Under the pieces are notes generated by a model. The model was not told the origin of the DNA and did no database searches. It saw only the letters and a program-made list of their open reading frames with translations. From Nephromyces sp. MM_2019 (Eukaryota > Apicomplexa > Aconoidasida > Nephromycida): a stretch of DNA of 14,765 nt. The position numbers were made by a program, and so were the translations under genes. Shown here in pieces: positions 1-14,694 of the stretch. The DNA lies in NCBI GenBank assembly GCA_015657535.1, contig JADHZB010001864.1, positions 17,475 to 32,239 of the forward strand, written 5' to 3'. Numbering within the stretch: the first letter of the stretch is position 1; every line of letters starts with the position of its first letter.

Positions 1-101
1 GAACTCAAGATGCTTCTAGTTGCTATAATGGGTGTGTGTGTGTGTATGTGTGCGGAACTCAAGATGCTTCTAGTTGCTATAATGGGTGTGTGTGTGTGTG
101 T
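1..101 (+). repeat. Tandem duplication, period 54
   Basis: The segment beginning GAACTCAAGATGCTTCTAG at 1 is repeated at 55, both copies running into a TG tract. The near-identity of the two copies suggests a recent duplication. It lies in the intron left of FARS2 exon 487-585. The remainder of 100-486 is AC-rich intron with no convincing exon. Confidence 0.9.
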
Positions 102-486
102 GTGTAGATTGTTATCAGGGGGTTTAGCTAATAATTTCCTGCCTATGTGAATGCTCTTAGACAGTATATCACATGCTAGCTGTAAATTGTATTGCTTAGA
201 AGCGTTTAAGGTTCAGGTTTTTTTCACACACAGAGGCACATTAAAACACATATATGCATGCTCACACAGGGCGACATTTACACACGTACTTATTCCCACA
301 CTTTGCATTCACACACATACTCTTTACACATAACTGCATTTACTCACATGCTTGCTTACACACAGATTCATTCACACACATTAAGAGTTTATTCGGTGAA
401 GCATCACATGCTTCTATGTATCCCAGTGTCTTCTTCAATAGTCTGTCTTCAAATGTACGTATACATGCTCACACACACATGCACAG

Positions 487-1943
487 GTTATCTCGGCTCT
501 TATTGATCATCTACTCCCCGACTGTAAGGCTTGGCGAATTCAACAGGACTTCTTCCCTTTTACTTTCCCATCATATGATGTTGAGGTTAGTCTACTTTCT
601 GTCTAGATAAGTGTGTGTGTGTGTGACTTTAGCCGTGTATGTGTGGATTTAGCTGTGTGTGAGTAAGCATATGTGTCAATGCAGTTGTGTGTGAGTAAGC
701 ATGTGTGTTTGTGTGTGTATGAGGCTGCTGGCTAGCTAAATATCTCATCGTCAGTGTCACTTGAAAAGCTTAGAATCTTCAACCAGTTTTCCACTGACTC
801 TCTAGATAGCAGCTCCAATGACAAACACACAACTTAAAACCTACTTTACTCCCCTCCCCTTATAAGCCTTTATAACCCCCAATACCTCCCCTAAACAGCA
901 ATCTTCAATCACACACCTGGAAGTAACCCTCCTCACAATTGTGCAAACCCCCCTCTCAACTATTCTAACACACGCAGACCCCAAAATAATTCCCCCCACA
1001 AACAAACCCCTTCCTCAATCACCCCGCCAAAAGCACCCTCTAAAACCAAACCCCCCACCTGACTAACTTCCCTATACATCCACCCCCCAATTAGGCATCC
1101 CCCCAGTAAGCGTCCCCCTGAAACCACTTCCACTCACTTCCCCTCATCACTACCCCCAACAAACCCTCCCAATAACTCCCCTCTATAGCAACTCTCCTAC
1201 AGCACCCCTCACACCACCTCCCACCCCCCTCAGGTGTATTTTAAAGGTTCCTGGGTAGAAATTCTTGGATGTGGAGTAGTTCATCCTACTCTTCAAGCAA
1301 AGTTCAGCCACGCACTAGGTGCACACAAGTTTGGGTGGGCTTTTGGCTTAGGTTTAGAGAGAATAGCGATGATGCTCTTTGAGATACCCGACATTCGCCT
1401 CTTCTGGTCATCTTCGAAGAGTTTTCTTGAGCAGTTCGCCTCCAAATCTCTCTGGGAGGAAGCCGTCTTCAAACCGTTCTCTACAGTTGCCCCTGTACGC
1501 AAACACAAGTTTTGGGGGGGTGTGCATGGAGTGGTGTGTTGATTGGGTGTGTGTGTGCAGTGGTGTGTGTGCAATGGTATGCTGATGAGGTGTCTGTGAA
1601 GTGCCGTGTTGATGAGATGTGTGTGAAGTGGTGTCTTGATGTCTGTGAGAAGCGTGTGCTTGTAAAGTGCTGTGTTGATGAGGAGCGCGTGCAGTTCATG
1701 ATGTGTATACCACCACACTCAACTGGTGCTATGGTGTATGTACACTCATCTCCCACTTAGTGGTATATACACCCACTGCTAACCAAAGAACACCACAAGT
1801 TTGCTTTTGTCTATACACTTCATCTACGTGACACACACGATCTACTTACCCTAAATATTTTGGTGTGTGTTATCCTTCTGATTCTCTTTTTCACTCGCTC
1901 TTTGCACGATCGCCTGCCCCCCCTAGCACTAGCAGATATGACT

Positions 1944-1983
<40 letters not shown>

Positions 1984-3665
1984 CTTTCTTCCTTCAGATT
2001 TCAAAGGATATCTCCTTCTGGATAAGCGATGACGAAATAGTGCATTTTAATACTGAAAAAGCAGCGGAAGAAGATGCACAAGATTCTCCTCTTTCAGACG
2101 TTGAAGCAGCAAAGAAAATGGGAAGCAAAGAGGCTTCTGATGTTTGGGGATGGTAAGAAAGATATATGTGGAAGATGGGAGAGGTATTGTGCCCTTTCTT
2201 GGCTGGTATAGAGGGTGTGTAAACACCCTTAGAGAGTGTGTGCATGTGTGGAGGGTGCGTACCGCTTCTTTTGGGGGGTGTACGTATACTGTCCTCTTAT
2301 TCTTTTGGGTCCTGAAGATTTGGTGCTCTCTGCCAAGTCTCCGCACACACAGGAGCAAATCCACTGGAGTGTGTTTGCACGCTCCAATCTTTTCTCTTCT
2401 CTCGTACGTTGCTCATATGAACCTTATGCATCAGAAATCCACATATATAAAGAGAGAAGCACAAAAAGCGCCATACACACACAAGGAAATGCAAGCGCAG
2501 CGCGATACACACAGAGAAATACATGCACAGTACGACACACATAACAGGATACCCTGAAACGCATACACACCGATATACACACACACGCATACATCGATAA
2601 ACATGCAGAGAAAACCCATATATGACATGGTAAGATGTATATGTGTGTTAGGACAAGAAAGAATGATTTCTTTGACGTTCTGAGGGAGGAAAGCTGCGAC
2701 CTAATTGAAGAAGCTTATCTTGTGGATAAATTTTTCCATCCTTCCGAGAGGAAGTACTCGCACACATATCGTTTAACCTTCTCCCCTACTGCTGACATAC
2801 GGGTAAGACAGCTGTACGTACACCCCCACTTTGAAGGCTAACTTCTAGCAGCACCCATTCATTTGACTTGTCGGAAGCAACTTCTCAACGTAATGCTCTC
2901 AATAGAACCCACACACAAGCCACAGGGACATGCATACACACCCCCAGGGATAGTGCGCTCATACACCCACACACACATACACACACACACACATAAACAC
3001 ACATAAACACACACATACACCCACACACACATACACCCACACACACATACACCCACACCCACACACACATACACCCACACACACATACACCCACACACAC
3101 CCACACCCACACCCACATACACATACACCCACACACACATACACCCACACACACATACACCCACACACACACATACACCCACACACACCCACACCCACAC
3201 ACACATACACCCACATACACATACACCCACATACACATACACCCACACACACATACACCCACACACACATACACCCACACACACATACACCCACACACAC
3301 ATACACCCACACACACATACACCCACACACAGACACCCACACACAGACACACACACACAGACACACACACACACACATACACCCACACACACCCACACCC
3401 ACACACACATACACTCGCATCCGTACACTATACTCTCAGACTTGTAGTGAACTCAACTCCGTGCTCTTAAGGCAGCATTTCTTAAGGCCAAATCCTGTCC
3501 AAAGCTAACATAGTTTGCAATTCAAGGAGAAACCCTAAAACCTAAACCCTACTTCCTTCTTCTTTACTTTATCAGGACCCCGGAGAGTTTCAGCGGATAA
3601 TTAACCTTCAAATGGAATCCCTAAGAAATCGATTAGTTAAGAAGATGATGCTATCGCTTCGCTAA
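487..3665 (+). CDS. FARS2: Mitochondrial-type phenylalanyl-tRNA synthetase, C-terminal part (5 exons)
   Basis: Charges tRNA-Phe with phenylalanine in an organelle. The exons I assign are 487-585, 1234-1494, 1998-2152, 2652-2802 and 3576-3665, giving about 251 codons in one frame with intron phases 0, 0, 2, 0. Exon 1 ends with FPFTFPSYDVE, the conserved element before the strand-turn 'LGCGV'. Exon 2 carries class II motif 3 (GWAFGLGLERIAMMLF) and the 'PDIRLFW' signature of single-chain PheRS. Exons 3-5 form the FDX-ACB anticodon-binding domain (DISFW, NDFFDVL, LVDKFFHP, YSHTYRLTF) and end at TAA 3663-3665. The catalytic N-terminus and any targeting peptide lie outside the window. All introns are GT-AG; the exon 2 donor (CCT|GTACGC) is chosen because it preserves frame and family spacing. 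There is an extra acidic stretch of about 40 residues in the anticodon-binding domain. Family assignment is very secure; the exon 2 end is the least certain boundary. Confidence 0.93.
586..1233 (+). other. FARS2 intron: TG-rich 5' third, then G-poor C/A/T tract
   Basis: A 648-nt GT-AG intron (donor GTTAGT, acceptor CCTCAG). Its first part contains TG repeats and a duplicated GTGTGTGAGTAAGCAT (about 653 and 685, period 32). From about 830 to 1230 the + strand is almost devoid of G and consists of CCCC-, ACC- and CTCC-rich sequence leading into the acceptor. This acts in effect as a very long C-rich tract. No coding signal is seen. Confidence 0.85.
1508..1690 (+). repeat. Degenerate GT-rich minisatellite, unit about 30-33 bp
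   Basis: Repeated blocks resembling TGTTGATGAGGTGTGTGTGA followed by AGTG occur around 1536, 1577, 1607, 1634 and 1673 within FARS2 intron 2 (1495-1997). The copies are diverged. They create an apparent Cys/Val-rich ORF that is not a protein. The rest of the intron to 1997 holds a palindromic motif at 1734 and a (GT)n run at 1948-1982 just before the acceptor. Confidence 0.7.
1734..1745. other. Quasi-palindrome GTGTATGTACAC
   Basis: A member of the recurring GTGTA-Y-N-TACAC family, followed by TCATCTCCCA; in FARS2 intron 2. Confidence 0.7.
1948..1982 (+). repeat. (GT)n microsatellite next to an acceptor site
   Basis: An uninterrupted GT run of about 35 nt ends 16 nt before the start of FARS2 exon 1998-2152. 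Only CTTTCTTCCTTCAG separates it from the exon. Confidence 0.95.
2961..3415 (+). repeat. CA-rich minisatellite, basic unit ACACACATACACCC (14 bp)
   Basis: About 455 bp of FARS2 intron 4 (2803-3575) is made of ACACACATACACCC units and variants, with no G at all outside a few CACAGACAC variants near 3329-3362. On the minus strand it yields long Cys/Val/Gly/Met ORFs that are artefacts of the repeat. The array breaks near 3416, and 3416-3575 is ordinary intron ending TTTATCAG. Confidence 0.95.
3530..3550 (+). repeat. Interstitial telomere-like repeat (CCCTAAA type)
   Basis: AAACCCTAAAACCTAAACCC then T is three degenerate units of the CCCTAAA/TTTAGGG telomere repeat, 26 nt upstream of the last FARS2 exon. 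It is too short to be a telomere; it is probably an interstitial remnant or chance. Confidence 0.5.
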
Positions 3666-4314
3666 AGAATATAGCTACTAGGTGTGTATGTATGTGTGTG
3701 TGAGTGTGTGTGGGGGTACGTGTTGGTGTCGGTGTGTGTGTGTGTGCCTGGATAATACTAGAGCGTCTTGGGAGGGCACTATGCGGCCATTTTCATCTCC
3801 AACCACAAGGGGAGAATTACATGCTTTTAATGCCCGCTTTGTGAGGTGTTAAAACACAAAAATGTTGCACACTATACACACGAAGCCACCCCCCCCACCC
3901 AAATCGTTCTCGCATATTCATTAACACACACCGCAGATCTCAGTGCTGACGGCACACGCGCTACACAAGTATTCCTCACACACAGGGAGACCAAACACAC
4001 ACTGCAACATCCACCATGCACACACTGGACACAACTCCACACACGCATGAGTCTCACAATGCAAGATCCACTACGCACATATTGCCACATCCACTAAGCA
4101 CACACTGTACATACACCCCATAAATATGATCCACACACACACTTCAGCATCCACTATACGCATATTTCACATCCGCAATATACACACACAAATCTACCAT
4201 CCTCTCATGGGCTAACATGAACACACGCATATATAGCCGCGCCTCCCACCATGCCAACTCAGCAATCCATATGTCCATGCAGCAACACACACACTCACTC
4301 ACAGCATCCCTCTA
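3666..4314 (+). other. FARS2 3' flank: TG tract then CA-rich spacer
   Basis: After the FARS2 stop, 3680-3752 is TG-rich, and 3846-4310 is CA-rich with many ACACAC blocks and phrases of the type CATCCACTA-CGCACAC recurring about every 25-40 nt. No AATAAA is visible close to the stop and no convincing exon is seen. Open frames here are His/Thr-rich translations of the repeat. Confidence 0.6.
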
Positions 4315-4463
4315 ATGCTTCATAAAATGTTAAGACTAGGCGTATTAATAAGCTTAAACGTGGACGGAAAGATAGTGTCTGAACTCAGCCTACATACACA
4401 CAGAGAATATTAAGCGAAGCTTGAGATGAAAATGAACAAAAACACTGAGCAATTGCAGTGCTT
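4315..4463 (+). CDS. Possible first exons of the middle gene
   Basis: An ATG at 4315 (or 4327) opens a frame reading MLRLGVLISLNVDGKI up to a possible donor ATA|GTGTCT at 4375. The frame stays open until a TAA at 4411-4413. A second candidate, about 4420-4463, reads LEMKMNKNTEQLQC before a GTATGT donor. The two blocks lack dinucleotide repeats and look like protein, but they are short. No family match or continuous junction to the 5111 exon was found. They could equally be chance open stretches between FARS2 and the next gene. Confidence 0.15.
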
Positions 4464-4483
4464 GTATGTGTGTGAGTTTATTA

Positions 4484-4710
4484 TGCAAACTCAAAATCCA
4501 AGGGGGGATTTCGCAGCGTGTGTGTGTGCGTGATTGAGTGTATCCACACACATTATGCAAGGAAAAATTGCATGTGTGTGTATAATAATGCATCTACACA
4601 CAAAATCCAAGGGGAAATTGCAAAATGTGTGTATGTGAGTGTATGTACAGAGGAAAGCGAAGGGGACATTACACAACATTTATGTGTGTGTACAAAAGTG
4701 TACATACACT
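4484..4710 (+). repeat. Degenerate ~70-bp repeats with CACACA...TGTGTG arms
   Basis: Four diverged blocks follow one plan: CACACA-type arm, AAATCCAAGGGGAAATTGCA-type core, then TGTGTGTG arm. The cores are near 4491, 4557, 4603 and 4658. The CA arm of each unit can pair with the following TG arm, so each could fold into a hairpin in DNA or RNA. The last block ends in the palindrome GTGTACATACAC (4698-4709). Confidence 0.6.
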
Positions 4711-4845
4711 TAAAATCAAATTTGCTGACATGCTCAGCATCGCTACAACCACCCTTTCCATAAGCCTATCTTCTCGTTTACACACAACTAATACTAGAAG
4801 GGGTATACGTACTCCGTGTCCTTTTAAAAAAATGTATTATACAGC

Positions 4846-5020
4846 AGTCTTACGCTCATACTTCACGCACGCCGAGATCATCAGCATATGCTTATCCTTT
4901 ACACAGAGATTGACACTGCCTGCATGTGCTCATGCTTCACACACACACACACGCTCAGATTACCAGCATATCCTCGTGCTTCACACACGCTAAGAACACC
5001 AGCATATGAGCACTCAGTAA
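4846..5020 (+). repeat. Degenerate ~45-60-bp repeats (CTTCACACACGC...CAGCATAT)
   Basis: Blocks of the form CTTCACACACGCT-AGATTACCAGCATAT recur beginning near 4859, 4934 and 4978, with spacing of about 45-75 nt. Flanking sequence to 5110 is CA-rich with a pure (CA)n at about 5060-5081. No exon is evident before the candidate at 5111. Confidence 0.6.
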
Positions 5021-5110
5021 CAGCTGCAGTGTATATACATCAATATCATCCAGATACTTTACACACACACACACACACACATATACAAGCAGTAGGAAGT
5101 TCGTCTTCAG

Positions 5111-5700
5111 CAGAGGCAGCAGGGATGGAAAACTGCTTTTGATGATATGTGCATGGCAAGTAAAGCCTACAGTATGGGAGCCATCACATAGACAAAGCAC
5201 ACACACACAGACGGCACTGCACACACAGTGTTACGAAAACACCTTATGGACACAATCGCATATTAAAACACGCACACATCATCAAACACAGCAACATACA
5301 AAAGAAACACACATGCTAACACACACACACCGACCCACTCCCGCTAAAACGAGTGCAGCACTACAAAATGGAAGTAGCAAGGATGTGCGTCGACATAGAG
5401 GAAAGTTCTTTGATAAGAACCGTGTGCTCTACGCAAAACACACACACACACACAGGCTACAAAGAGGAAATATCCGAGCAGTAGAGATAGAGGAATCAGC
5501 TGAACAACCTTAGTGCCCACCACCGCCAGGAGGACCAGACGATTCTCCCTGAAGAAGATGATGAAGATGAAGATGATCATAAAGATGATGAAGATGAAAA
5601 AAAAGAAGAGCAAGAAAATGATGGAAACACAGCAGATGAAGAAAATGAACGAATTGAAGATGATGAAGAGGCAGTAAATGAAGACGCAAAAACGTGTTAG
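5111..5700 (+). CDS. Three phase-compatible candidate exons ending in an acidic domain (unrecognised)
   Basis: Candidate exons 5111-5159, 5354-5421 and 5500-5700 join in frame (phases 1 and 0). Acceptors are TTCAG, ACGAG and AATCAG; donors are A|GTAAAG and ACC|GTGTGC. The product reads QRQQGWKTAFDDMCMA, then MQHYKMEVARMCVDIEESS, then LNNLSAHHRQEDQTILPE. A run of some 45 mostly Asp/Glu residues follows (about 5551-5685), before TAG 5698-5700. These segments lack CA repeats, unlike their surroundings, and they look like protein. They lie on the same strand and upstream of the probable NELF-C/D exons, so they may be its 5' part with a lineage-specific acidic insert. I found no clear family motif to prove this. 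A one-base shift in the A5 run at 5688-5692 would carry the frame on through about 5770. The ACGAG acceptor is weak. Confidence 0.35.
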
Positions 5701-5945
5701 TTCGTCCTACTGTGAAGAGGGTAAATCAAATGGAATAAATGCATTTGAAGACAGCAAGCATAACCTCCAGGGTAACACATTAAACAACCTCTTTTTATCA
5801 CACAGATATAAGCCCTTGGCATCAACGAGGCACATTAAGGCAGAAGATATCTTCGAACTTTCATCAAACGTGCAGAGACGGTGTGTCTATGAACACACAT
5901 TTTTCAGGGCTGGAAATCATAGTATTAACAAAGGGAGGAAATATA

Positions 5946-6185
5946 CACACACAAACACGAAAAAACTGCATTTCAAGGTAAAAAATGTAAAAGGACCCAC
6001 ACACACACGCAGAATCTTCATTTCAAAGTAAAACTAGTATGAGAGGGCACAAACACAAGCGGAAAACTTCATTTCAGAATCAAGAGTATAAAAGCACACA
6101 CATACACAAAGAATAAAAACCTGAATCATAAGGGAGAAATCGCACAAGGTATAAAGAACAGCACACAACTCAGCATAATCTGCAG
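5946..6185 (+). repeat. Tandem ~50-bp degenerate repeats containing CATTTCAAGGTAAAA
   Basis: Four to five diverged copies start with ACACACAC, pass through CTTCATTTCAAAGTAAAA-type sequence, and end with AAAAGG or GAGGGC. Copies begin near 5947, 5998, 6048 and 6095. The core resembles a donor site (TTTCAAG|GTAAAA) and is repeated in each unit. The first copy could be part of a real exon starting after TTTTTCAG at 5907; the others are probably decayed copies. Confidence 0.6.
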
Positions 6186-6305
6186 TTTATGTTTCAATAT
6201 GAACACATACAAACTAAGGATTCTCTGCGCTTGCCGATGCTCTTTCAACCACCTAATATATCAACAAGCCCATTATCTTCTCAACGATGGAAGGGAAGCA
6301 AACAG
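6186..6305 (+). CDS. Candidate internal exon (unrecognised)
   Basis: This 120-nt block is bounded by CTGCAG before it and CAG|GTAGAG after it, and it is free of CA repeats. In phase 0 it reads FMFQYEHIQTKDSLRLPMLF and continues through QRWKGSKQ. A second frame is also open and contains NHLIYQQAHYLLNDGREA, so the reading frame cannot be fixed from sequence alone. It lies between the acidic candidate exons and the probable NELF-C/D exons on the same strand. The phase-0 frame stays open past the donor (VEIAMWTLKG), with another possible donor at GTATGA near 6337. No family is recognised. Confidence 0.25.
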
Positions 6306-6471
6306 GTAGAGATAGCGATGTGGACGCTCAAGGGGTATGAAAACCATAATACAGACACACACGCTTTTTTTGAGATATATCAATATGTGCTTGTTACTTC
6401 ACACACATCATCGCCCGCAAGTTACCTCACACACACCATTATCACTTCACACATACACACCTTTAAGGTAG

Positions 6472-6809
6472 CCTTCACCCAAGGGTAAACGTGGCTGCCT
6501 CCTAAGTCCATTGCCACGTATGAAAACGCAGCAAACACGCCAAACTTCATCACCCTCCTCATCCCCGTCACAACGCAAAAGGCATAGCCAATTGCCATCT
6601 TTGAATAGAAGAAGAAAAAGAGGAGGGAGAAGAAGAATATGAAGATGAAGAGGAAGAAGAAGAGGAAGAGGAAGAAGTAGAAAAAGAAGAGGAGGGAGAA
6701 GAAAACTTTTGAGGCGATAAAACGTAAATTTCTGCGTCGAGTGTTTTTCCTTTGCGGAAGGAAGTGGAAAACGGCGAAACTGCAAAGAATAGCGAATCCT
6801 GCTGCGTTT
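6472..6809 (+). CDS. GA-rich candidate exon region with competing frames
   Basis: After the TAG at 6469-6471 an open frame of 56 codons runs 6472-6642. It is Ser/Arg/Lys-rich, with KGKRG and NRRRKRGGRRR, and ends at TGA 6640-6642. In the next frame, 6608-6712 encodes an almost pure Glu tract and stops at TGA 6710-6712. In the third frame, after a TAG at 6678-6680, 6681-6809 encodes KKKRREKKTFEAIKRK followed by a hydrophobic/basic stretch, and ends before a GTGTGC donor. A splice from AAGG|GTAAAC (6485) to the acceptor at 6608 would connect PSPK in frame to the Glu tract. At least one of these is probably coding, because the block lacks TG/CA repeats. I cannot choose the true structure. Confidence 0.25.
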
Positions 6810-6976
6810 GTGTGCGGAGGGTGTGTGCGCGTCAGCTCGTCTGTAGGAGCATGTATGTACCGCTATGAGTACTCCTGTGTGCGACTGTGTGTGCGCCTTT
6901 GCTTGCCTGTGTAGGCTGGAGCTATCATCATGTAGGACCTGCGTGTGTGTGTGGGTAAAATGAGTTACCTAGTAAG
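6810..6976 (+). other. TG-rich stretch between candidate exons
   Basis: TG-rich intron-like sequence with repeated GTGTGCG/TGTGTGTG elements. No convincing exon was found between the 6809 donor and the 6977 acceptor. At least one small exon may be missing here, because the reading phases on either side (0 and 1) do not match. Confidence 0.4.
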
Positions 6977-8974
6977 CCATGTGCGTCCACCTTTATGATA
7001 TCATACAAAGTGTGTGTGCAAGTAAAGCATCTTCAAGGACAGTGTGTGCAATTTTGAGTGCTTGCGTGCAGTATCTTCGTTGATACATCGAATCATTACT
7101 CAGCTGAGTAAAGGTGTATACATTACTCTGCGAAGGTTATATGTGTGTGTGCACTCTCATCTTGTAAGCTACAAGCGACGAAAATTTGCTCCCCCACTTC
7201 TCACGGTTTTCTATCTCCCCCTCACCGCATATACTTACAGTAACCTCAGCAAGAAAGCATGCCTATCTGTTTGATAACTTGTGTGTTGATAAAACTCACA
7301 CACACGCACCCAACACACAACCATAAAATTAATGAGGATTCACATACACACACACATACACACTCCTGCCGACAGATACACACTCACCTACCAACCCTCC
7401 CGACAATGCACACTCACCAACACACACCGAAGCACACACACTCACCAACACACACATGCCGAACAACACATGCATCCGCAGACCAATCCACACACACACC
7501 TATCAACGCACACACAAACCCCCCCTCCAATCTATAGGCCCACCAATGCACCCACACACACACGGCAACACACACGCAATGACTTTACCTTGTAACCACC
7601 CCTTTCCACATTTGCTACTCACAACACACACACACACGCCGGAAATCTCCCTCCTGTTCATCTCCCAGCCACCTTACCAGCACTTTTTGCTCTTAATATC
7701 TCTCCTTCAAGAAATGTCTAAAAATTGACATTTTTTGAGATTTTCTTTGCTCCCTCTTCTGTATACGTTTTGTGCATCATTTCCGCCAAGGAGTTTAGGG
7801 CGATTCTTTAATGAGTTGTTTTCCTCTATATAAATACCATATGAACTTTCAGTGAGTGTGTGCACGAATGCTAAGAGCATATGGTAGTTTATGCGTTTTA
7901 GGGGAAACTTGTGTGTTTTTTTGGTGTGTTGGGGGGTGGTTGGGTGTGTGTTAGTGGAGATTATTTGGAGGAGTGTTGGAGGAGGTGTGTGTGCGTTGGG
8001 GTGTGCGTGTGTTGGGGTGTGGGTGTGTGTTTGGGGGGTTTTTGTGTTGTTTTAGGGTTTTGGGTATGTATTGGATTGCTTGTGTTTTTGTTTGTGCGAG
8101 TTTTGGGTGTTTGTAGTGGAGTGTATTTGTGGAGTGTGTGTATTGAGGTGTGTGTATTTTGGTTATTTTTTGAAGTGTCTGTATATTGGGATGTGTGTGT
8201 ATGGATGTGTGTATGTTGGAATTTGTGTGGAGTGTGCGTGAATATGTGCTCAAGCACTGGAAAACTGTGTGTAGTGCTAATGCGCCGTACTCTTCCGAGT
8301 ATGCTGCTGCGTGTGTGACGAAGCTGCTGCCAATGCTTGATATTTTGTGTTTTATCTCTCTATTGAGTATATGGTGGGCAAAACTTTGTGTGTGAATGTG
8401 TACATGTTGAGAATAATCCGAGATTTTTGCGTACACGTGTGTGTGTGTCTCCTGCTTCTACACTATAAAATAGTGGGCTATCAGTTTTTCTACCAGATAT
8501 TAGACTGAGTTTTTATGCGTGTACGTGGGTGTGTGTGTGTGTGTGTGTGTGTATGTGAATGCGTATGTGTGTGTCAGTATGTGTATGTGAACGTGTGTGT
8601 AAATGTGGGTAAGTTTATGCGCATGTGTGTATGCATGAATATTGAGCGTTTGTGTGTCTTGGTGTGAATGGGTCTGTGTAAACCTGTGTATTTCCTGCGT
8701 ATGTATTTCTTGTGTATGTTTAAATAGCACTCCTGATCTGTATGTTTTTGTGTGCGAATCTTTCCAGATATATGCTTTGTGGGTGTATAAATGTATCTCA
8801 AGGTTTGATTGTGTGCACAGACATCTCTCCACCTTCTGTGTGTTGAGCTCCTCCAACTCTATTATTTCTCCCTCTCTCGCTGTGTATGTACACTCACTCT
8901 GAATCTTCTACTTCTGTTCCAACTGTTTCATAGTTATTCGGAAGATGCTAGAAACAGAGCTTAAATCTAGATAA
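6977..8974 (+). CDS. NELFCD: Probable TH1-family protein / NELF-C/D, C-terminal exons
   Basis: NELF-C/D is a subunit of the negative elongation factor that holds RNA polymerase II at promoter-proximal pauses. Seven small exons chain in frame: 6977-7009, 7072-7113, 7169-7205, 7241-7268, 7669-7715, 8275-8346, 8768-8802, with the last at 8934-8974 ending in TAA. Readable pieces are SSLIHRIITQLSK, SDENLLPHFSRNLSKK, YQHFLLLISLLQE, ANAPYSSEY, VTKLLPMLD and VIRKMLETELKSR. From memory, human NELF-C/D has DRMVHLLSR, VLPVVSYIRKC, RYFVTEVLDVIAPPYTSDF and LFLPILE in the same order. The spacing from the 'LP' to the 'PY' is the same 36 residues. Weak points: the donor at 7716 (GTCTAA), the AAG acceptors before 6977 and 7169, and the absence of a recognised N-terminus. 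Reading on past 7715 would instead stop at TGA 7726-7728. The downstream AATAAA fits a gene end here. Confidence 0.6.
7269..7668 (+). repeat. CA-rich intron of the probable NELF-C/D gene
   Basis: ACACAC blocks and CACTCACCAACACACAC-type repeats fill this 400-nt segment between exon 7241-7268 and the exon at 7669. Three overlapping His/Thr/Pro ORFs are translations of the repeat. The acceptor is CATCTCCCAG. Confidence 0.75.
7716..8274 (+). other. TG-rich intron-like region of the probable NELF-C/D gene
   Basis: The first 140 nt are T-rich without repeats; from about 7905 to 8220 the + strand is GTGT/GGGG/TTTT-rich. An ATG at 8213 opens a frame (MLEFVWSVREYVLKHWK) that runs in frame into exon 8275-8346. 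It could mark an alternative start of a short separate protein of about 69 residues. The preferred reading treats this as intron ending in GTGTGTAG. Confidence 0.45.
8515..8767 (+). repeat. TG-rich microsatellite tract in an intron
   Basis: (TG)n with GTATGTGAA interruptions, about 8520-8640, in the 421-nt segment between exons ending 8346 and starting 8768. The acceptor is CTTTCCAG at 8767. Confidence 0.75.
8882..8893. other. Quasi-palindrome GTGTATGTACAC
   Basis: A family member in the 131-nt intron before the last probable NELF-C/D exon, 40 nt from the acceptor, followed by TCACTCTG. Confidence 0.7.
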
Positions 8975-9079
8975 GGAGTTTAAGCTGCTTTCGATGTGTG
9001 TGTGAGCTGCGTAGCCTCAGTATAGCTAGTCGAAGTGACTGAGTCCATCTCTTTGCGTGCACACAGGGAAATGCACTGC

Positions 9080-9085
9080 AATAAA
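9080..9085 (+). terminator. Candidate polyadenylation signal AATAAA
   Basis: The canonical hexamer lies 106 nt downstream of the TAA at 8972-8974, at a plausible distance for the 3' end of the probable NELF-C/D transcript. It is the only AATAAA seen between that stop and the XPO7 start. Confidence 0.45.
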
Positions 9086-9190
9086 GCTCCTACGGTGTGT
9101 GCGAGAAGTGATTGGCTGCATGAAACCTCTGGAAAGTGAGAAATAAGACAGGAATGTCGGTGTGTGTGTGTGGTAGGAGTTTAGTGGGGT

Positions 9191-9248
9191 GCGGAGGATA
9201 CGCTGTGCCTGTTGAGAATGAGTTCTTTAGTATGCGGAGGATACGCTG
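9191..9248 (+). repeat. Direct repeat GCGGAGGATACGCTG, period 43
   Basis: Exact 15-bp copies at 9191-9205 and 9234-9248 in the spacer upstream of XPO7. Confidence 0.95.
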
Positions 9249-9279
9249 CTGTGTGGAATGATTTCTATAGAATATGCAA

Positions 9280-9340
9280 CACATACCGGTGTATATACAC
9301 CTGCTCTCCCAATATGTTCAGCACATACCGGTGTATATAC
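9280..9340 (+). repeat. Direct repeat CACATACCGGTGTATATAC, period 42
   Basis: Exact 19-bp copies at 9280-9298 and 9322-9340; each contains the palindrome GTGTATATAC(AC). The period is almost the same as that of the neighbouring duplication. Confidence 0.95.
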
Positions 9341-9344
9341 TCCA

Positions 9345-9990
9345 ACTCTCTGCCTTTGTTATCTACTAAAAGCACTTTGTGTTGCTATAGGGGTTAAGAA
9401 ATAGCTGCTACCCTACTTCTGTGTGCTCAGATTTTCTCTATATGAAGTCCATGTGTGCGTGCGTACGATTTTGCCTTGTGTACTGATTTAAAATGTGTGT
9501 GTTCCCCATTATATTTTGGTGTGTGCGTGTTTTTCTGCACTTTAATGAAGCATCTTCAAATTTGAAACTCGTTGAAGGTGTTTTCTGTATGTGTGAGTAT
9601 GTTGCTGCTTTCGTGCGATTTCCCTAGTATATCACTGGGCTATTCTTCTGTATGTGTTGTTTGCCTTTTCTATATTCTTCCTCTCCCTCTTCTTCATGTT
9701 CTCCCACACCTCTTCCTAATCTTCTAACCCGCCCCCTNCCAGATTCCATCTATGAGAACCCCCCCCCCCTCTACGGTATGGTAGAACTCGAGATTAACCC
9801 CTCTGATTGAGTTTCCAGTGTAAATTCTGACGAATGTGATGGGATGCTTTTCTGGCATCTTCTTCTCAACTAAATCAGTTGTACTCGAGGCAGTTTACCT
9901 GTTGGAGAAGAGGAGGAAGTAGGGAAGATTCTACTGTTTGGTGGAAAACGTCTAATCAGTTATTTGAGGAGCAGTTTTGTGTGTGTAAAC
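9345..9990 (+). promoter_or_regulatory. Spacer and probable XPO7 promoter / 5' UTR
   Basis: No coding signal is seen between the 9340 repeat and the XPO7 ATG. The region is T- and TG-rich to about 9650, then pyrimidine-rich (CTTCC-type, 9655-9745). It contains one ambiguous base at 9738 and an 11-C run at 9759-9769. A purine-rich stretch GAGAAGAGGAGGAAGTAGGG (about 9904) precedes the start codon. No TATA box is clear. Assigning it as promoter/leader rests on position only. Confidence 0.35.
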
Positions 9991-12900
9991 ATGAGCCTCG
10001 AAGATCAGAATATTCAAAGAGATCTTCAGCAGTTTGAGATCTTATGCCAAGCGTTCTATAGGTGTGTGTGAGGGGGGGTGGGTTGTATGTGAGGGGGTTG
10101 GGCCGTTTGTGTGAACGGAGTTGTGTGTCAGGAGCAGGGTTGGGCTGTTTGTGTGAGGAGCAGCATTGGGTTGTTTGTGTGTGAGGAACGGTGTGTGATG
10201 GTTTTCTGTAAGGAGCACAGTTGCATGGTGTGTGTTTTTAGGATACGGGTTTTTTAGTGTGTGTGAGTGATGTTTTTGCGTGTGCATGGTGGATTCTCTT
10301 TGTTTTATATGTTCTGTTTGTGTTTTTGTTGGTTTTTCAGTTGTTTATAGTGTGTGTGTGTGTGTGTGTGTGTGTGTATTTCAGTTTGTAGCATTTTCAT
10401 TGTGGACTTCTCTCTTTTGGCCTTGTTGAATTCTAAACGTCTCCTTTTTTATGTATTCCTGTGTGTTTGTGGTGTGTGTGTGTGTGTGTAGCAACAATGA
10501 TTTAGAACGGCAGAGAGCTCATGAAGTTCTACTGCCTTTGGTTAGTTCTCTCGATGGCCTTCCGAAGCTTCAAGCAATTCTGGCCCACTCAAATAACCTC
10601 CAGAGTTTGTTATTTGCTGCTGCAGGGCTAAGAAACATCTTCACACGGTAGGTGGTGTGTGTGTGCTGTTTTTAGTATGTGTGTTGTCTATAATGTATGT
10701 TGATTGTAGTGTGTGTGTGTGTTGTTTTTATTGTGTGTCGATTATATTGTGTGTATGCTGATTATAGCGTGTTTGTGTACTAATTTTATTACATCTGTGT
10801 GTTTATTTCCTGCTGTGTGTGTTGATTCTTTTGTGTCTGTGTGTGTGCTGTTTTTTTTTATAGGAGCTGGGACATGATCCCATCTTCCAACCCTCAGCAG
10901 ACTGCTACTTTTATATTAAACTACTTGGTGAGTTCTTCTGGGGCTTATAGATTGTGTGTTAGGTGGTGTACGTACACTTACATTGCTTCGTGCAGTAGAT
11001 TTTATAGGTTTTTGTGTTGTCTCTGGTATGACTGTGTATGTTGAGTTGTGAGTGGTGTTTGTATTGTATCTCCTTTTGCTGGTGTTATGTGATGATTGTG
11101 GTGTTTGTTACCTGGATGTCTCGCTCCTGTGTGCACTTTACATTAAATACCTCTTATATCTGTGTGTGTTACTCCAGTTACGTATCATTGTACATACACT
11201 CTGTTAACCTGTGTGTTTGTCGGCTTTTGTGTATGTATATGCTGTGGTGTGTATGTGCTTTTGTGCTTGCTTCCTTGCTTGCGTGTGTGTGCTTGACATC
11301 AAGATTACTGCTCCTACCTTTGTTACTAACCTTGCTTCGCTTTGCAGTATCAGCGTGCTCCTGATATACTAGAGAATGCTCCAGAGATATTAACTCCCTT
11401 TGTGTGTCTCTGGTGCCGTATAGTTAAGCTATCATGGCTGGAAAACATGTCGAATCAGGTATTTTTCGAGTGTACTTACACCTCCAGTGTTTGTGTGTGA
11501 AGATGCTTTTTTCCCCCGTCTCTTGGTTGTTATTTAGTTGGCTAAGCTTTCTGCTTGTTAAGGCATTCAATTACGTGCTTAGAGCATCTATAAATTTGTG
11601 TATGTGATGGCAATATCTGTGTAGGTGTGCGTGTGTGTGCATGATGGCAATGAGTATATGATGTCAAAGTATGTGTGTGTGTGCAATACAAATGTTTATA
11701 TGATCTGAATTTCTGTGTGTGTTGCTTCTTATGTGATGTATTTCTCCACTATTTTCGCTGTATTTTCAACTCCTCGGTGTACTTACACCCGCTCTCACTG
11801 CTTTCCAGGGGGTTATACCTCAAATCGATCAGTTTTTGGAGGGAGGAAATGCTCATTGGGTGGTGGGGCTTCACATCCTCACTGAATTAGTTGAGGAGAT
11901 GAAGCTTCATAACTCTGTCTTTGCTCCACGTCTGAGAAGAACTGCTCTCTCATTTAGGGATATCTCTATGCCCCAGATCATTGATGTGAGAATTTGTGGT
12001 GGATCTGGTGGTGTGTGTGTGGGCATGTGCTCTGTGTCTATGTGAGGATAACCCCTGTTTGAGTTTTGAATGGCGTGTGCGTGCGAAGTTACACTCTTAG
12101 TATGCTTCTAAGTGATGCATGCGTATGACGATGTACTCTGTGTGTGTTTTGAAGTGATACGTGTCCGTGAAGATTCACGCTATGCTATCTAGACACTAGT
12201 GTGTCAACATGTACACCATGCCCTAGTCATGTGTGTGCGAAATTTTTTGGGTCAAAGTTTTTGTACATAACAATTGTGTGCGTATCTGACTCTGAGCAAT
12301 TATGCTTGTGTGTGTGCTTGTTTTTGCTCTCTCGTAAAGGCCATTTTTTCAAGTTTTTTTTGCGTTTTTCGTACTTCATGAGTGTAGGTACACTCTTAAG
12401 CCTCACTGATATGCGAGGAGCATGATGTATAATTTTGCTTTTAGAGAGCTTTGAAGACTTTGCAGCAATTTGTCAGTGGAGTTGTACAAGTGCCTAATCG
12501 CTCAGAAGAAATCAAGTTATCTAATCAGGTGCTGAAGCTAACACACAACTGCTTAGCATTTGACTACATGGGAACATCACCCGACGAATCTCAAGAAGAT
12601 CAGGTTTGAAGTTTGTGCTTTGAAGAGTATCATTATGAGTGTATGAACACCTCAAAGAGTATATTATTTGGCTCGCTTAAGAACTGTTAGTCTTTTATTT
12701 TTGGAGGTTTTATGGCAGGCAGTATAATCGTGGTGGAGTTGCTACATATAGAACTATTGGGGAGGTTTGGGGGGTTGAAGATGATGGGTAGGGGGTTGAA
12801 GATGAGGGGATGATTCTCAGTAAGTTGAAGAGGAGGTTTAACCAGTTAACTGTGAATTTCAAGGCAATGAAGATGGATGCGTTCGAATTGAAGGTTACGT

Positions 12901-14694
12901 TACTGTTTTTAAGATGAGAATACTAAAGGAATCATCGAGGTATACGCTTTTTATGAGAAGTGGGAAGCGGAAAGGATGTTTTTTATGCTTTTCTACTAGA
13001 AGTTGGCTGCACACCGTGTGTGGCTTTACAGAAACGCATGCTATTCCTCTGGTCTTATCATCATTTCCTCCTCTGTCTGTCTTGTGGTCACTTCTTCCTG
13101 CTCCTCTTGAGCTTGCTCTTCTCTTTCATCTTCTCTTTCCTCTTCTTCATCCACTTGTTTCTCCACTTCTTCCGCTGCTTCTTCCATCGACCTCTTCTTC
13201 CTTGGCTTCTTCTTCTTTGCAGACTACGGTGATGCTACCTGCAGCTTTCAACTATCTTGGGGATGGAAACATCGCTCTCATCTTCTTTGATTTGTATGCG
13301 ATCTGCTGGAATGATCCGCAAGGGGAGAGGATAGAAAGCGCGAAGCTTTGCCTTGCCTGCCTTGTATTGGTAGCATCTATTAGAAAGTAAGTGTGTGTGT
13401 TATTATGATTGAGGACTGTGTGCGTCTTGTGCTGTAATGAGGTGTGTGTTGCTTGTTTGTATTGCTTGTGTGTTGTTTGTGGGTGTTGCTTCTCTGTGTT
13501 TTTTGTGTGTGCTGCTTGTACTTACTGATTATTTGTGTTCTTTCCATGGAGCTTAGTTACTCTGCGAGTGTACGTACACCCGATTACTCTGTTTCAGATC
13601 TTTCTTTGCTAATGAAGACCAGAGAAATCTCTATATTAAGCAGATGATGACGGGCACTCGGCGTGTACTACAGACTAATCTTGGCTTAGATCATGATGAC
13701 TGCCATCATGAGTTCTGCCGTCTGCTCGGAAGGATTGGATCAGCTGGGCAGGTGTGTGTGTGTGTATGTGAAAGGCTTCATTATGGTGTGTGCTATGCTG
13801 CATAAATGAAACTTGTGGGCGGGAGGTTGAGTCGGGGAGTAAATGGAGAACTTCATTGCACTGCTTTCCATGCAAACACTTCATCTATTACACACTTGTA
13901 GTATTCTGTTAAAGAATGCATGTATCTTCTGGCTGATGATAAACTCTATTTTATGTGTGTGTGTGTGTGTGTGTGTTCCTCAGCTGGTGGAGTTTGCAGA
14001 GTTTACGGATTTTGAAAGCTGGACAAACCTGCTGTTTACATACACTATTAGGGTCCTGGAAAATTGGCGGCGTATGGTATGTCAGTGTGTTTTTGAGTGT
14101 GCTCTACTCGTGTGTGTTAGTGTGTGCTCTACTCGTGTGTGTCAGAATTTACTCTACGCATATGAACTTTTTAGGCTCCTGGCCAAGATGATGTGTGTGA
14201 TATAATTTAGGGTTGTGTGTGCATGCTGAGCTTTGCGTGCTTGTATGTGAGTCTCAGGCGTCGTGTGCTCGTATGTGTGTTCCATTAGGTGCATTGATTT
14301 TGCGACTTTTGCACACCAACCTGGCTATGTGTGTCAAGGTGGTGTACTATATGTTTCGCTCATACATTTCAGTGTGCTTATGTGTGTGTATGGATCTCTA
14401 TCTCTTCTTCAGCCGAACAGTATGCAGTACTTGCTGGGAGCGTGGATATCCATGTTAAATCCCGTAAATTTTAGAAACCCTCAAGTTCTGGCAGCAAGTG
14501 TAGGCTTCTACATCGAGCAGGTTGGTAAGCGCAATACGTGTGTGTGTTATGTGTGTGCTGTGTATGTATGCTGCTGTAAGTTTGTGCTGTGTGTGTACTT
14601 TTTGTGTATTCTTCATGCGCGTGTGTTCAGTTGAGAGTGCATGTCTACATGTGGACGACCTAGTGTCCACGCTTGTATGGAATCTTTTCAATTT
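9991..14694 (+). CDS. XPO7: Exportin-7 (RanBP16), N-terminal part (11 exons, runs off right edge)
   Basis: A nuclear transport receptor of the importin-beta family; with Ran it carries cargo through nuclear pores. Exons: 9991-10061, 10492-10647, 10864-10927, 11348-11458, 11809-11985, 12445-12603, 13223-13386, 13598-13751, 13984-14076, 14413-14524 and 14631 to about 14694. Intron phases run 2, 2, 0, 0, 0, 0, 2, 0, 0, 1, all frame-consistent, giving about 440 of the roughly 1,090 residues usual in the family. The ATG at 9991 is chosen because MSLEDQNIQRDLQQFE sits where family members begin. Family landmarks appear in order: the importin-beta N-terminal helix (LERQRAHEVLLPLV), LSFRDIS, LKLTHNCLAFDYMGTSPDES, IALIFFDLY, HHEFCRLLGRIG, and PNSMQYLLGAW. 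The exon 10 donor could be 14521 (GTTGGT) or 14525 (GTAAGC). I prefer the latter because it joins in frame to the exon at 14631. The end of exon 11 is uncertain (GT at 14675 or 14695). Confidence 0.93.
10062..10491 (+). repeat. XPO7 intron 1: G/T minisatellite and (GT)n tracts
   Basis: From 10062 to about 10270 degenerate 35-40-bp units of the form GTTTGTGTGAGGAGCAGGGT then TGGG recur. A pure (TG)n tract lies at about 10350-10377. Another (GT)n at 10472-10489 directly abuts the acceptor (TGTGTGTAG), leaving no pyrimidine tract. Confidence 0.85.
10648..10863 (+). repeat. XPO7 intron 2: GTTGATTATAGTGTGTGTG-type repeats
   Basis: Diverged units combining TTGATTATAGTGTGTGTG with TTGTTTTTAT recur at roughly 30-nt spacing across the whole 216-nt intron. 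It ends in TTTTTTTTTATAG. Confidence 0.65.
10928..11347 (+). other. XPO7 intron 3
   Basis: Donor GTGAGT, acceptor CTTTGCAG. T/G-rich without a regular minisatellite. It has a perfect palindrome GTGTACGTACAC at 10966-10977 and a near copy, TTGTACATACAC, at 11188-11199. No additional exon is seen. Confidence 0.8.
10966..10977. other. Perfect palindrome GTGTACGTACAC
   Basis: A family member 38 nt downstream of the XPO7 intron 3 donor. Confidence 0.75.
11470..11481. other. Quasi-palindrome GTGTACTTACAC (donor-side copy)
   Basis: It begins 11 nt inside XPO7 intron 4, followed by CTCCAGTG. The same 13-mer (including the next C) recurs at 11777 near the acceptor. Confidence 0.75.
11777..11788. other. 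Quasi-palindrome GTGTACTTACAC (acceptor-side copy)
   Basis: It ends 20 nt before XPO7 exon 5; followed by CCGCTCTCACTG. Confidence 0.75.
11986..12444 (+). other. XPO7 intron 5
   Basis: Donor GTGAGA, acceptor GCTTTTAG. It contains degenerate GTGCGTGCGAAGTTACACTC / GTCCGTGAAGATTCACGCTA phrases (about 12078 and 12163). The palindromic motif lies at 12382-12393, 51 nt before the acceptor. No exon is seen. Confidence 0.75.
12382..12393. other. Palindromic motif GTGTAGGTACAC
   Basis: A family member with a G at the variable position, in XPO7 intron 5, followed by TCTTAAGCCTCACTG. Confidence 0.65.
12604..13222 (+). other. XPO7 intron 6, lacking TG repeats
   Basis: A 619-nt intron (donor GTTTGA, acceptor CTTTGCAG) whose composition differs from its neighbours. 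It has a G-run cluster at 12759-12809 and a CTT/CTC-rich pyrimidine tract of about 160 nt (13060-13220). There is no dinucleotide repeat. Family alignment runs straight from GTSPDES across to the exon at 13223, so no exon is missing here. Confidence 0.75.
13568..13579. other. Perfect palindrome GTGTACGTACAC
   Basis: It ends 18 nt before XPO7 exon 8; followed by CCGATTACTCTG. Confidence 0.75.
14098..14146 (+). repeat. Tandem repeat TGTGCTCTACTCGTGTGTGT, period 25
   Basis: Two exact GCTCTACTCGTGTGTGT copies start at 14101 and 14126, with a decayed third near 14151, in XPO7 intron 9 (14077-14412). Confidence 0.85.

Follow-up and report, generated by a model that had tools for sequence, protein, structure and literature searches.

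A 14-bp palindrome repeated through a Nephromyces genome: a candidate DNA element sharing the core of the Plasmodium female-gene motif

We analysed a 14,765-nucleotide window (positions 17475-32239 of contig JADHZB010001864.1) of the apicomplexan Nephromyces sp. MM_2019, and searched the assembly to which it belongs (48,283,399 bases, or 48.3 Mb, in 1,127 contigs), and found that a palindromic word, GTGTAYRTACAC, occurs far above chance. The motif is real, and its fuller consensus, RGTGTAYRTACACY, is a palindrome of 14 bp. It is very probably a cis-acting element, that is, a protein-binding site in DNA, and we put at roughly 0.5 the probability that its copies are sites of a putative homologue of PFG, the protein that binds the female element of Plasmodium berghei.

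The motif was picked out by eye in a first-pass annotation of the window, and it is indeed present at all 15 coordinates given there. Nine of these sites are exact copies of GTGTAYNTACAC on one strand (1734, 4698, 8882, 9289, 10966, 11470, 11777, 13568 and, on the minus strand, 12382), and six carry one mismatch (2278, 2812, 5029, 9331, 11188 and 12639); four further one-mismatch sites, at 4105, 4538, 4639 and 14034, were absent from that list. When up to two mismatches were allowed and both strands were counted, the window held 69 matches, compared with a mean of 17.0 and a maximum of 31 in 200 shuffles. Exact GTGTAYRTACAC occurs six times in the window, whereas 200 Markov resamplings at each of three orders yielded means of 0.01 (order 1, maximum 1), 0.20 (order 3, maximum 3) and 0.31 (order 4, maximum 3). 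The density in the window is approximately eightfold the genome average, which is no evidence by itself because the finding was picked from this same window. Across the whole assembly, however, GTGTAYRTACAC was found 2,356 times and the reversed word of the same letters 71 times, making the latter 33 times rarer; GTGTAYNTACAC was found 2,638 times forward and 2,614 times in reverse, compared with 100 and 101 for its reversed pattern; and GTGTACGTACAC alone was found 706 times, compared with 10 when reversed. On the shuffles, the reversed-word counts and the resampling, we rejected a simple TG/CA background; the first-pass annotation had likewise held that such a background alone does not create the centre of the motif.

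The consensus was derived from 44 distinct sites taken from the window and a small sample of fetched stretches. This set is non-random: GTGTACGTACAC served as the anchor for fetching 15 stretches, and local TG/CA content decided the orientation of the sites; sites less than 50 bases from a stretch end were dropped, and identical 52-base contexts, which arise where stretches overlap, were counted once. A purine (A or G) occupies position -1 in 39 of the 44 sites and a pyrimidine (C or T) position +12 in 40, whereas the next bases outwards are less constrained (G at -2 in 21, C at +13 in 18). Beyond these two nearest flanking bases, the commonest base of every column between -20 and +39 is found in at most 24 of the 44 sites. 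The C/T-rich tract, such as CNCTCTCACTG, that had been thought to follow most copies therefore shrinks to one pyrimidine and a weak C at the next base. The pyrimidine recurs in 52 of 60 palindrome rows near acceptor-like sequence (59 distinct, one palindrome appearing twice), which are independent of the 44-site set. The centre is a pyrimidine followed by a purine (YR) in 39 of the 44 sites and something else in five. In a merged 163-kb sample, which is enriched for the motif as it was partly fetched around GTGTACGTACAC sites, the AYRT centre accounts for 39 of 63 GTGTNNNNACAC, and the most over-represented 8-base palindrome is GTACGTAC (24 copies, 1.8 expected).

The two halves of the palindrome vary independently. 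If the arms paired in RNA, a change from G to C on one side would be matched by a change from C to G on the other, and this was tested genome-wide at one stem position. The one-sided change CTGTAYRTACAC occurs 437 times forward and 437 times in reverse (874, beside 2,356 unchanged words), and the two-sided change CTGTAYRTACAG occurs 100 times, compared with 81 predicted by independence, or 95 compared with 75 after the reversed-pattern counts are subtracted. At the outer positions -1 and +12, the pairs in 39 sites were A-T in 11, G-C in 8, A-C in 8, G-T in 6 and others in 6, with no clear preference for pairing. At the centre, CG in 706 of 2,356 words corresponds to a C frequency of 0.547 per half; independence then predicts, per 60 sites, 18.0 CG, 29.7 CA/TG and 12.3 TA, and the 60 acceptor-near rows contain 17, 32 and 11, respectively. 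Although the isolated 16-mer folds (-5.7 kcal/mol, z -3.2), six native 52-nt contexts, representing six of the 15 sites, did not fold more stably than their shuffled versions (z -1.43 to +1.62). Independent variation of the half-sites and the unremarkable folding of native contexts thus argue against an RNA stem and for a DNA-binding protein that contacts two half-sites.

Two genes could be modelled in the window:

1234..3665, + strand, 3' part of a FARS2-like gene (mitochondrial-type phenylalanyl-tRNA synthetase), from Pfam and joined translation
9991..14520, + strand, 5' part of an exportin-7-like gene, first ten exons, from a joined translation open over 419 amino acids

The FARS2-like exons (1234-1494, 1998-2152, 2652-2802 and 3576-3665) give a joined translation that is open from end to end, and 1234-1500 matches Pfam PF01409 with an E value of 6.5e-16. 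The exportin-7-like exons are 9991-10061, 10492-10647, 10864-10927, 11348-11458, 11809-11985, 12445-12603, 13223-13386, 13598-13751, 13984-14076 and 14413-14520; when searched one by one against Pfam, these single exons gave no match, but their joined translation has four homologues, the best of which is an exportin-7, as named by its source, at 39% identity. No tRNA or Rfam feature was matched at gathering scores. The last FARS2-like intron contains a minisatellite of approximately 470 bp (2940-3415, CATACACCCACACA-type units) that is CA-rich on the sense strand, and the TG richness of introns is therefore not strictly tied to transcription. At the start of the window (1-108), a 54-bp unit with a TG run at its end forms two tandem copies that share 98% identity over 51 bases. 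Relative to these models, the motif copies are placed as follows, with a strand assigned only to the site at 4538:

1734..1745, exact palindrome GTGTATGTACAC, in an intron of the FARS2-like gene
2278..2289, one mismatch, in an intron of the FARS2-like gene
2812..2823, one mismatch, 9 nt downstream of the donor GT (2803) of a FARS2-like intron
4105..4116, one-mismatch copy, newly found, outside gene models
4538..4549, + strand, one mismatch to GTGTAYNTACAC and two to the YR form, newly found, outside gene models
4639..4650, one-mismatch copy, newly found, outside gene models
4698..4709, exact palindrome, outside gene models
5029..5040, one-mismatch copy, outside gene models
8882..8893, exact palindrome, upstream of the exportin-7-like model, whose start is about 1.1 kb away
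9289..9300, exact palindrome, upstream of the exportin-7-like model, whose start is about 0.7 kb away
9331..9342, one-mismatch copy, within a diverged direct repeat, 42 bp from the 9289 site
10966..10977, exact palindrome, exportin-7-like intron 3, 38 nt from the donor
11188..11199, one-mismatch copy, middle of exportin-7-like intron 3
11470..11481, exact YN copy GTGTACTTACAC, exportin-7-like intron 4, 11 nt from the donor
11777..11788, exact YN copy GTGTACTTACAC, exportin-7-like intron 4, 20 nt before the acceptor
12382..12393, exact on the minus strand, exportin-7-like intron 5, 51 nt before the acceptor
12639..12650, one-mismatch copy, exportin-7-like intron 6, 35 nt from the donor
13568..13579, exact palindrome, exportin-7-like intron 7, 18 nt before the acceptor
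14034..14045, one-mismatch copy, newly found, inside an exportin-7-like exon

The description of the motif as seeded through introns thus holds for ten of the 15 sites first noted, which lie in introns of the two modelled genes; the other five (4698, 5029, 8882, 9289 and 9331) lie between the models (3666-9990), the last three of them 0.7-1.1 kb upstream of the exportin-like start. The direct repeat that contains 9289 and 9331 spans 9270-9345 with a spacing of 42 bp, and in each copy the palindrome follows CACATACCG.

For seven of the ten intronic sites in the window, a splice site is no more than 51 nt away, compared with an expectation of 25% (P 0.004, with the cut-off chosen after the data had been seen), but the strength of this effect varies with the cut-off: four of ten lie within 20 nt (P 0.014) and the same number within 30 nt (0.05), six within 40 nt (0.006), and seven within 75 nt (0.04) or 100 nt (0.16). 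Genome-wide, acceptor-like TTTTNCAG was counted 60 times within 30 nt 3' of the palindrome, compared with 34 times at 150-180 nt (P 0.01) and 30 times within 30 nt on the 5' side (P 0.002), an excess of approximately 1.8- to 2-fold over either comparison zone; the base rate predicts about 39. Donor-like GTAAG showed no preference (128 near, 127 far), a comparison with little power given that about 109 are expected by base rate, as computed with 2,400 sites. Both GTAAG and TTTTNCAG are crude stand-ins for real splice sites. The motif therefore seems to have a mild bias towards the intronic flank of acceptors, of the kind expected from a non-coding element, and no apparent fixed position. Some sites are also clustered as regulatory sites can be, for example three palindromes at an exact 23-bp spacing in one fetched stretch (L026, 2277-2334), just before T-rich acceptor-like sequence.

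What might bind such a site is suggested by work on Plasmodium. In P. berghei, PFG is described as binding a ten-base female element, TGTRNNYACA, and bringing AP2-FG to it, and three point mutations in one site reduced PFG binding to background (PMC10945693); a later paper writes the element as TGTAYRTACA (PMC11162789), and in both papers these words already serve as a regulatory motif. The core of the Nephromyces motif is TGTAYRTACA letter for letter and lies within TGTRNNYACA. The earlier of the two papers reports PFG homologues broadly among apicomplexans and in Vitrella, and according to its authors the two conserved regions of PFG resemble no known DNA-binding domain (PMC10945693). In the Nephromyces assembly, we found 64 AP2-domain matches at E 0.001 or better, some open frames carrying several of them; 44 of the 64 exceed the cut-off, including two that do so only together with their neighbours. 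ACDC is a companion domain of apicomplexan AP2. Its six matches in the assembly are all over the cut-off, compared with none in 14 control genomes, and five of the six have AP2 matches on the same contig at a distance of no more than about 1.4 kb. Both counts are at the level of domain families rather than orthologues.

Given the TGTAYRTACA core and the ApiAP2-type genes of the genome, the most likely binder would be this organism's own homologue of PFG, the factor that in P. berghei brings AP2-FG to its element and switches on female-gametocyte genes. In this proposal, the two inverted half-sites, RGTGTAY, would jointly bind a sequence-specific nuclear protein, the putative PFG homologue; intronic copies would act as enhancer or promoter elements in non-coding DNA, introns included. 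The data establish the enrichment, the extended palindrome, the independence of its halves, the unconserved flanks and the AP2 and ACDC domains of the genome; protein binding, the identity of the binder as a PFG homologue and a part in sexual-stage transcription control are our inferences.

Several observations weigh against binding by a PFG homologue. Ten of the 15 sites are intronic, whereas in Plasmodium the targets of PFG were assigned from peaks no more than 1.2 kb upstream of a gene (PMC10945693); the host genes, an exportin and a tRNA synthetase, have no obvious sexual role; one one-mismatch copy (14034) is exonic; and the PFG homologue itself is putative. The two-sided change is in excess over independence by 1.2 to 1.3 times, and base pairing also predicts an excess, although in our judgement it would give a far larger one. 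Finally, contigs differ in GC content (guanine plus cytosine, 0.29 to 0.47) and in motif density, so that the assembly may be mixed.

As to composition, the fetched stretches fall into groups, with L008, L009 and L012 set apart from L004-L007, L010, L011, L013-L016 and the window; the ranges are a GC content of approximately 0.29-0.31 with AT repeats, 0.34-0.42 with an excess of GpC, and 0.41-0.47 with TG richness, and motif density differs among them. These groups possibly represent a mixture of organisms or strong compartments. L008 contains an asparagine-rich open frame of 1,817 amino acids, and L013 (6215-9819) contains exons that, judged by eye, resemble a fused ATP sulphurylase/APS kinase.

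The four candidates offered at the outset (splicing element, RNA hairpin, protein-binding operator and mobile palindrome) fared unequally: the operator fits best, a splicing element is weakly indicated at most, and the hairpin and the mobile palindrome are opposed by the data. An RNA element or hairpin within introns and close to splice sites, aiding splicing or the pairing of intron ends, would explain the post hoc clustering within 51 nt, the acceptor-side excess and the folding of the isolated 16-mer; we regard it as improbable, in view of the absence of any donor-side preference, the independent halves, the ordinary folding of native contexts and the five of 15 sites outside modelled introns. 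Less probable still, with only the slightest credence, is that a small mobile palindrome left the copies behind or that TG/CA microsatellites produced them as a by-product. The window is rich in TG/CA repeats and a diverged direct repeat contains the copies at 9289 and 9331, but conservation of the flanks stops after one or two bases, the reversed word is rare and resampled sequences almost lack the motif. No conserved element body was found in the 44 sites, and the unconserved flanks therefore argue that the motif is not a mobile-element footprint.

Among protein-based alternatives, a different two-half-site or dimeric binder unrelated to PFG, such as another ApiAP2, a zinc-finger protein or an architectural protein that serves regulation or chromatin organisation, would explain the DNA-level evidence (consensus, independent halves and counts) equally well, and the 64 AP2 matches supply many candidate factors. 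We consider this somewhat unlikely, as so exact a match of the core to an element published for a related lineage would then be a coincidence. Alternatively, the palindrome could comprise two inverted GTGTAC copies of an AP2-G-type site, described as GxGTACxC (PMC4537280, PMC12190761, PMC6631176), and mark sexual-commitment genes. The halves of GTGTACGTACAC are indeed GTGTAC and GTACAC, and AP2-G domains of Plasmodium and Theileria are reported to bind GTGTACAC (PMC4537280, PMC12190761). However, TA-centred sites, which make up 11 of the 60 acceptor-near rows, lack the GTAC core, and plain GTGTACAC is scarce, occurring four times in 163 kb and not appearing among the 25 most enriched 8-base palindromes listed; we therefore rejected the AP2-G site, which seems quite improbable.

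Returning to the PFG homologue, we tentatively propose that the female sexual-stage element of Plasmodium may be an ancient apicomplexan code, present here as a full 14-bp palindrome in thousands of copies, many of them intronic, and read by a PFG homologue. If a PFG homologue does read this palindrome, the malaria female-gene switch would be older than Plasmodium, and sequence alone would suffice to list its candidate targets in a relative that has hardly been studied. So regular a palindrome would also offer a clean substrate for solving how PFG grips DNA.

Three known systems resemble the motif to different degrees. Intronic splicing enhancers near 3' splice sites form a general class, and some sites here are likewise near acceptors; the motif differs in being palindromic, in showing no donor bias and a weak acceptor bias, and in occurring also outside modelled introns. 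The AP2-G site GxGTACxC, or GTGTACAC, of Plasmodium and Theileria has the GTGTAC half in common with the motif, whereas here GTAC is absent from the TA-centred sites and the listed enriched palindromes do not include the 8-bp form. The PFG/AP2-FG element of P. berghei has the same 10-bp core with inverted half-sites, and ApiAP2-type genes are also present in this genome; the word here is longer (R...Y, 14 bp), is frequent in the introns examined, belongs to a different 48-Mb genome and has a putative binder. The scale is nevertheless similar, with 1,073 and 1,204 PFG peaks reported from chromatin immunoprecipitation in P. berghei (PMC10945693) and 2,356 exact 12-mers here.

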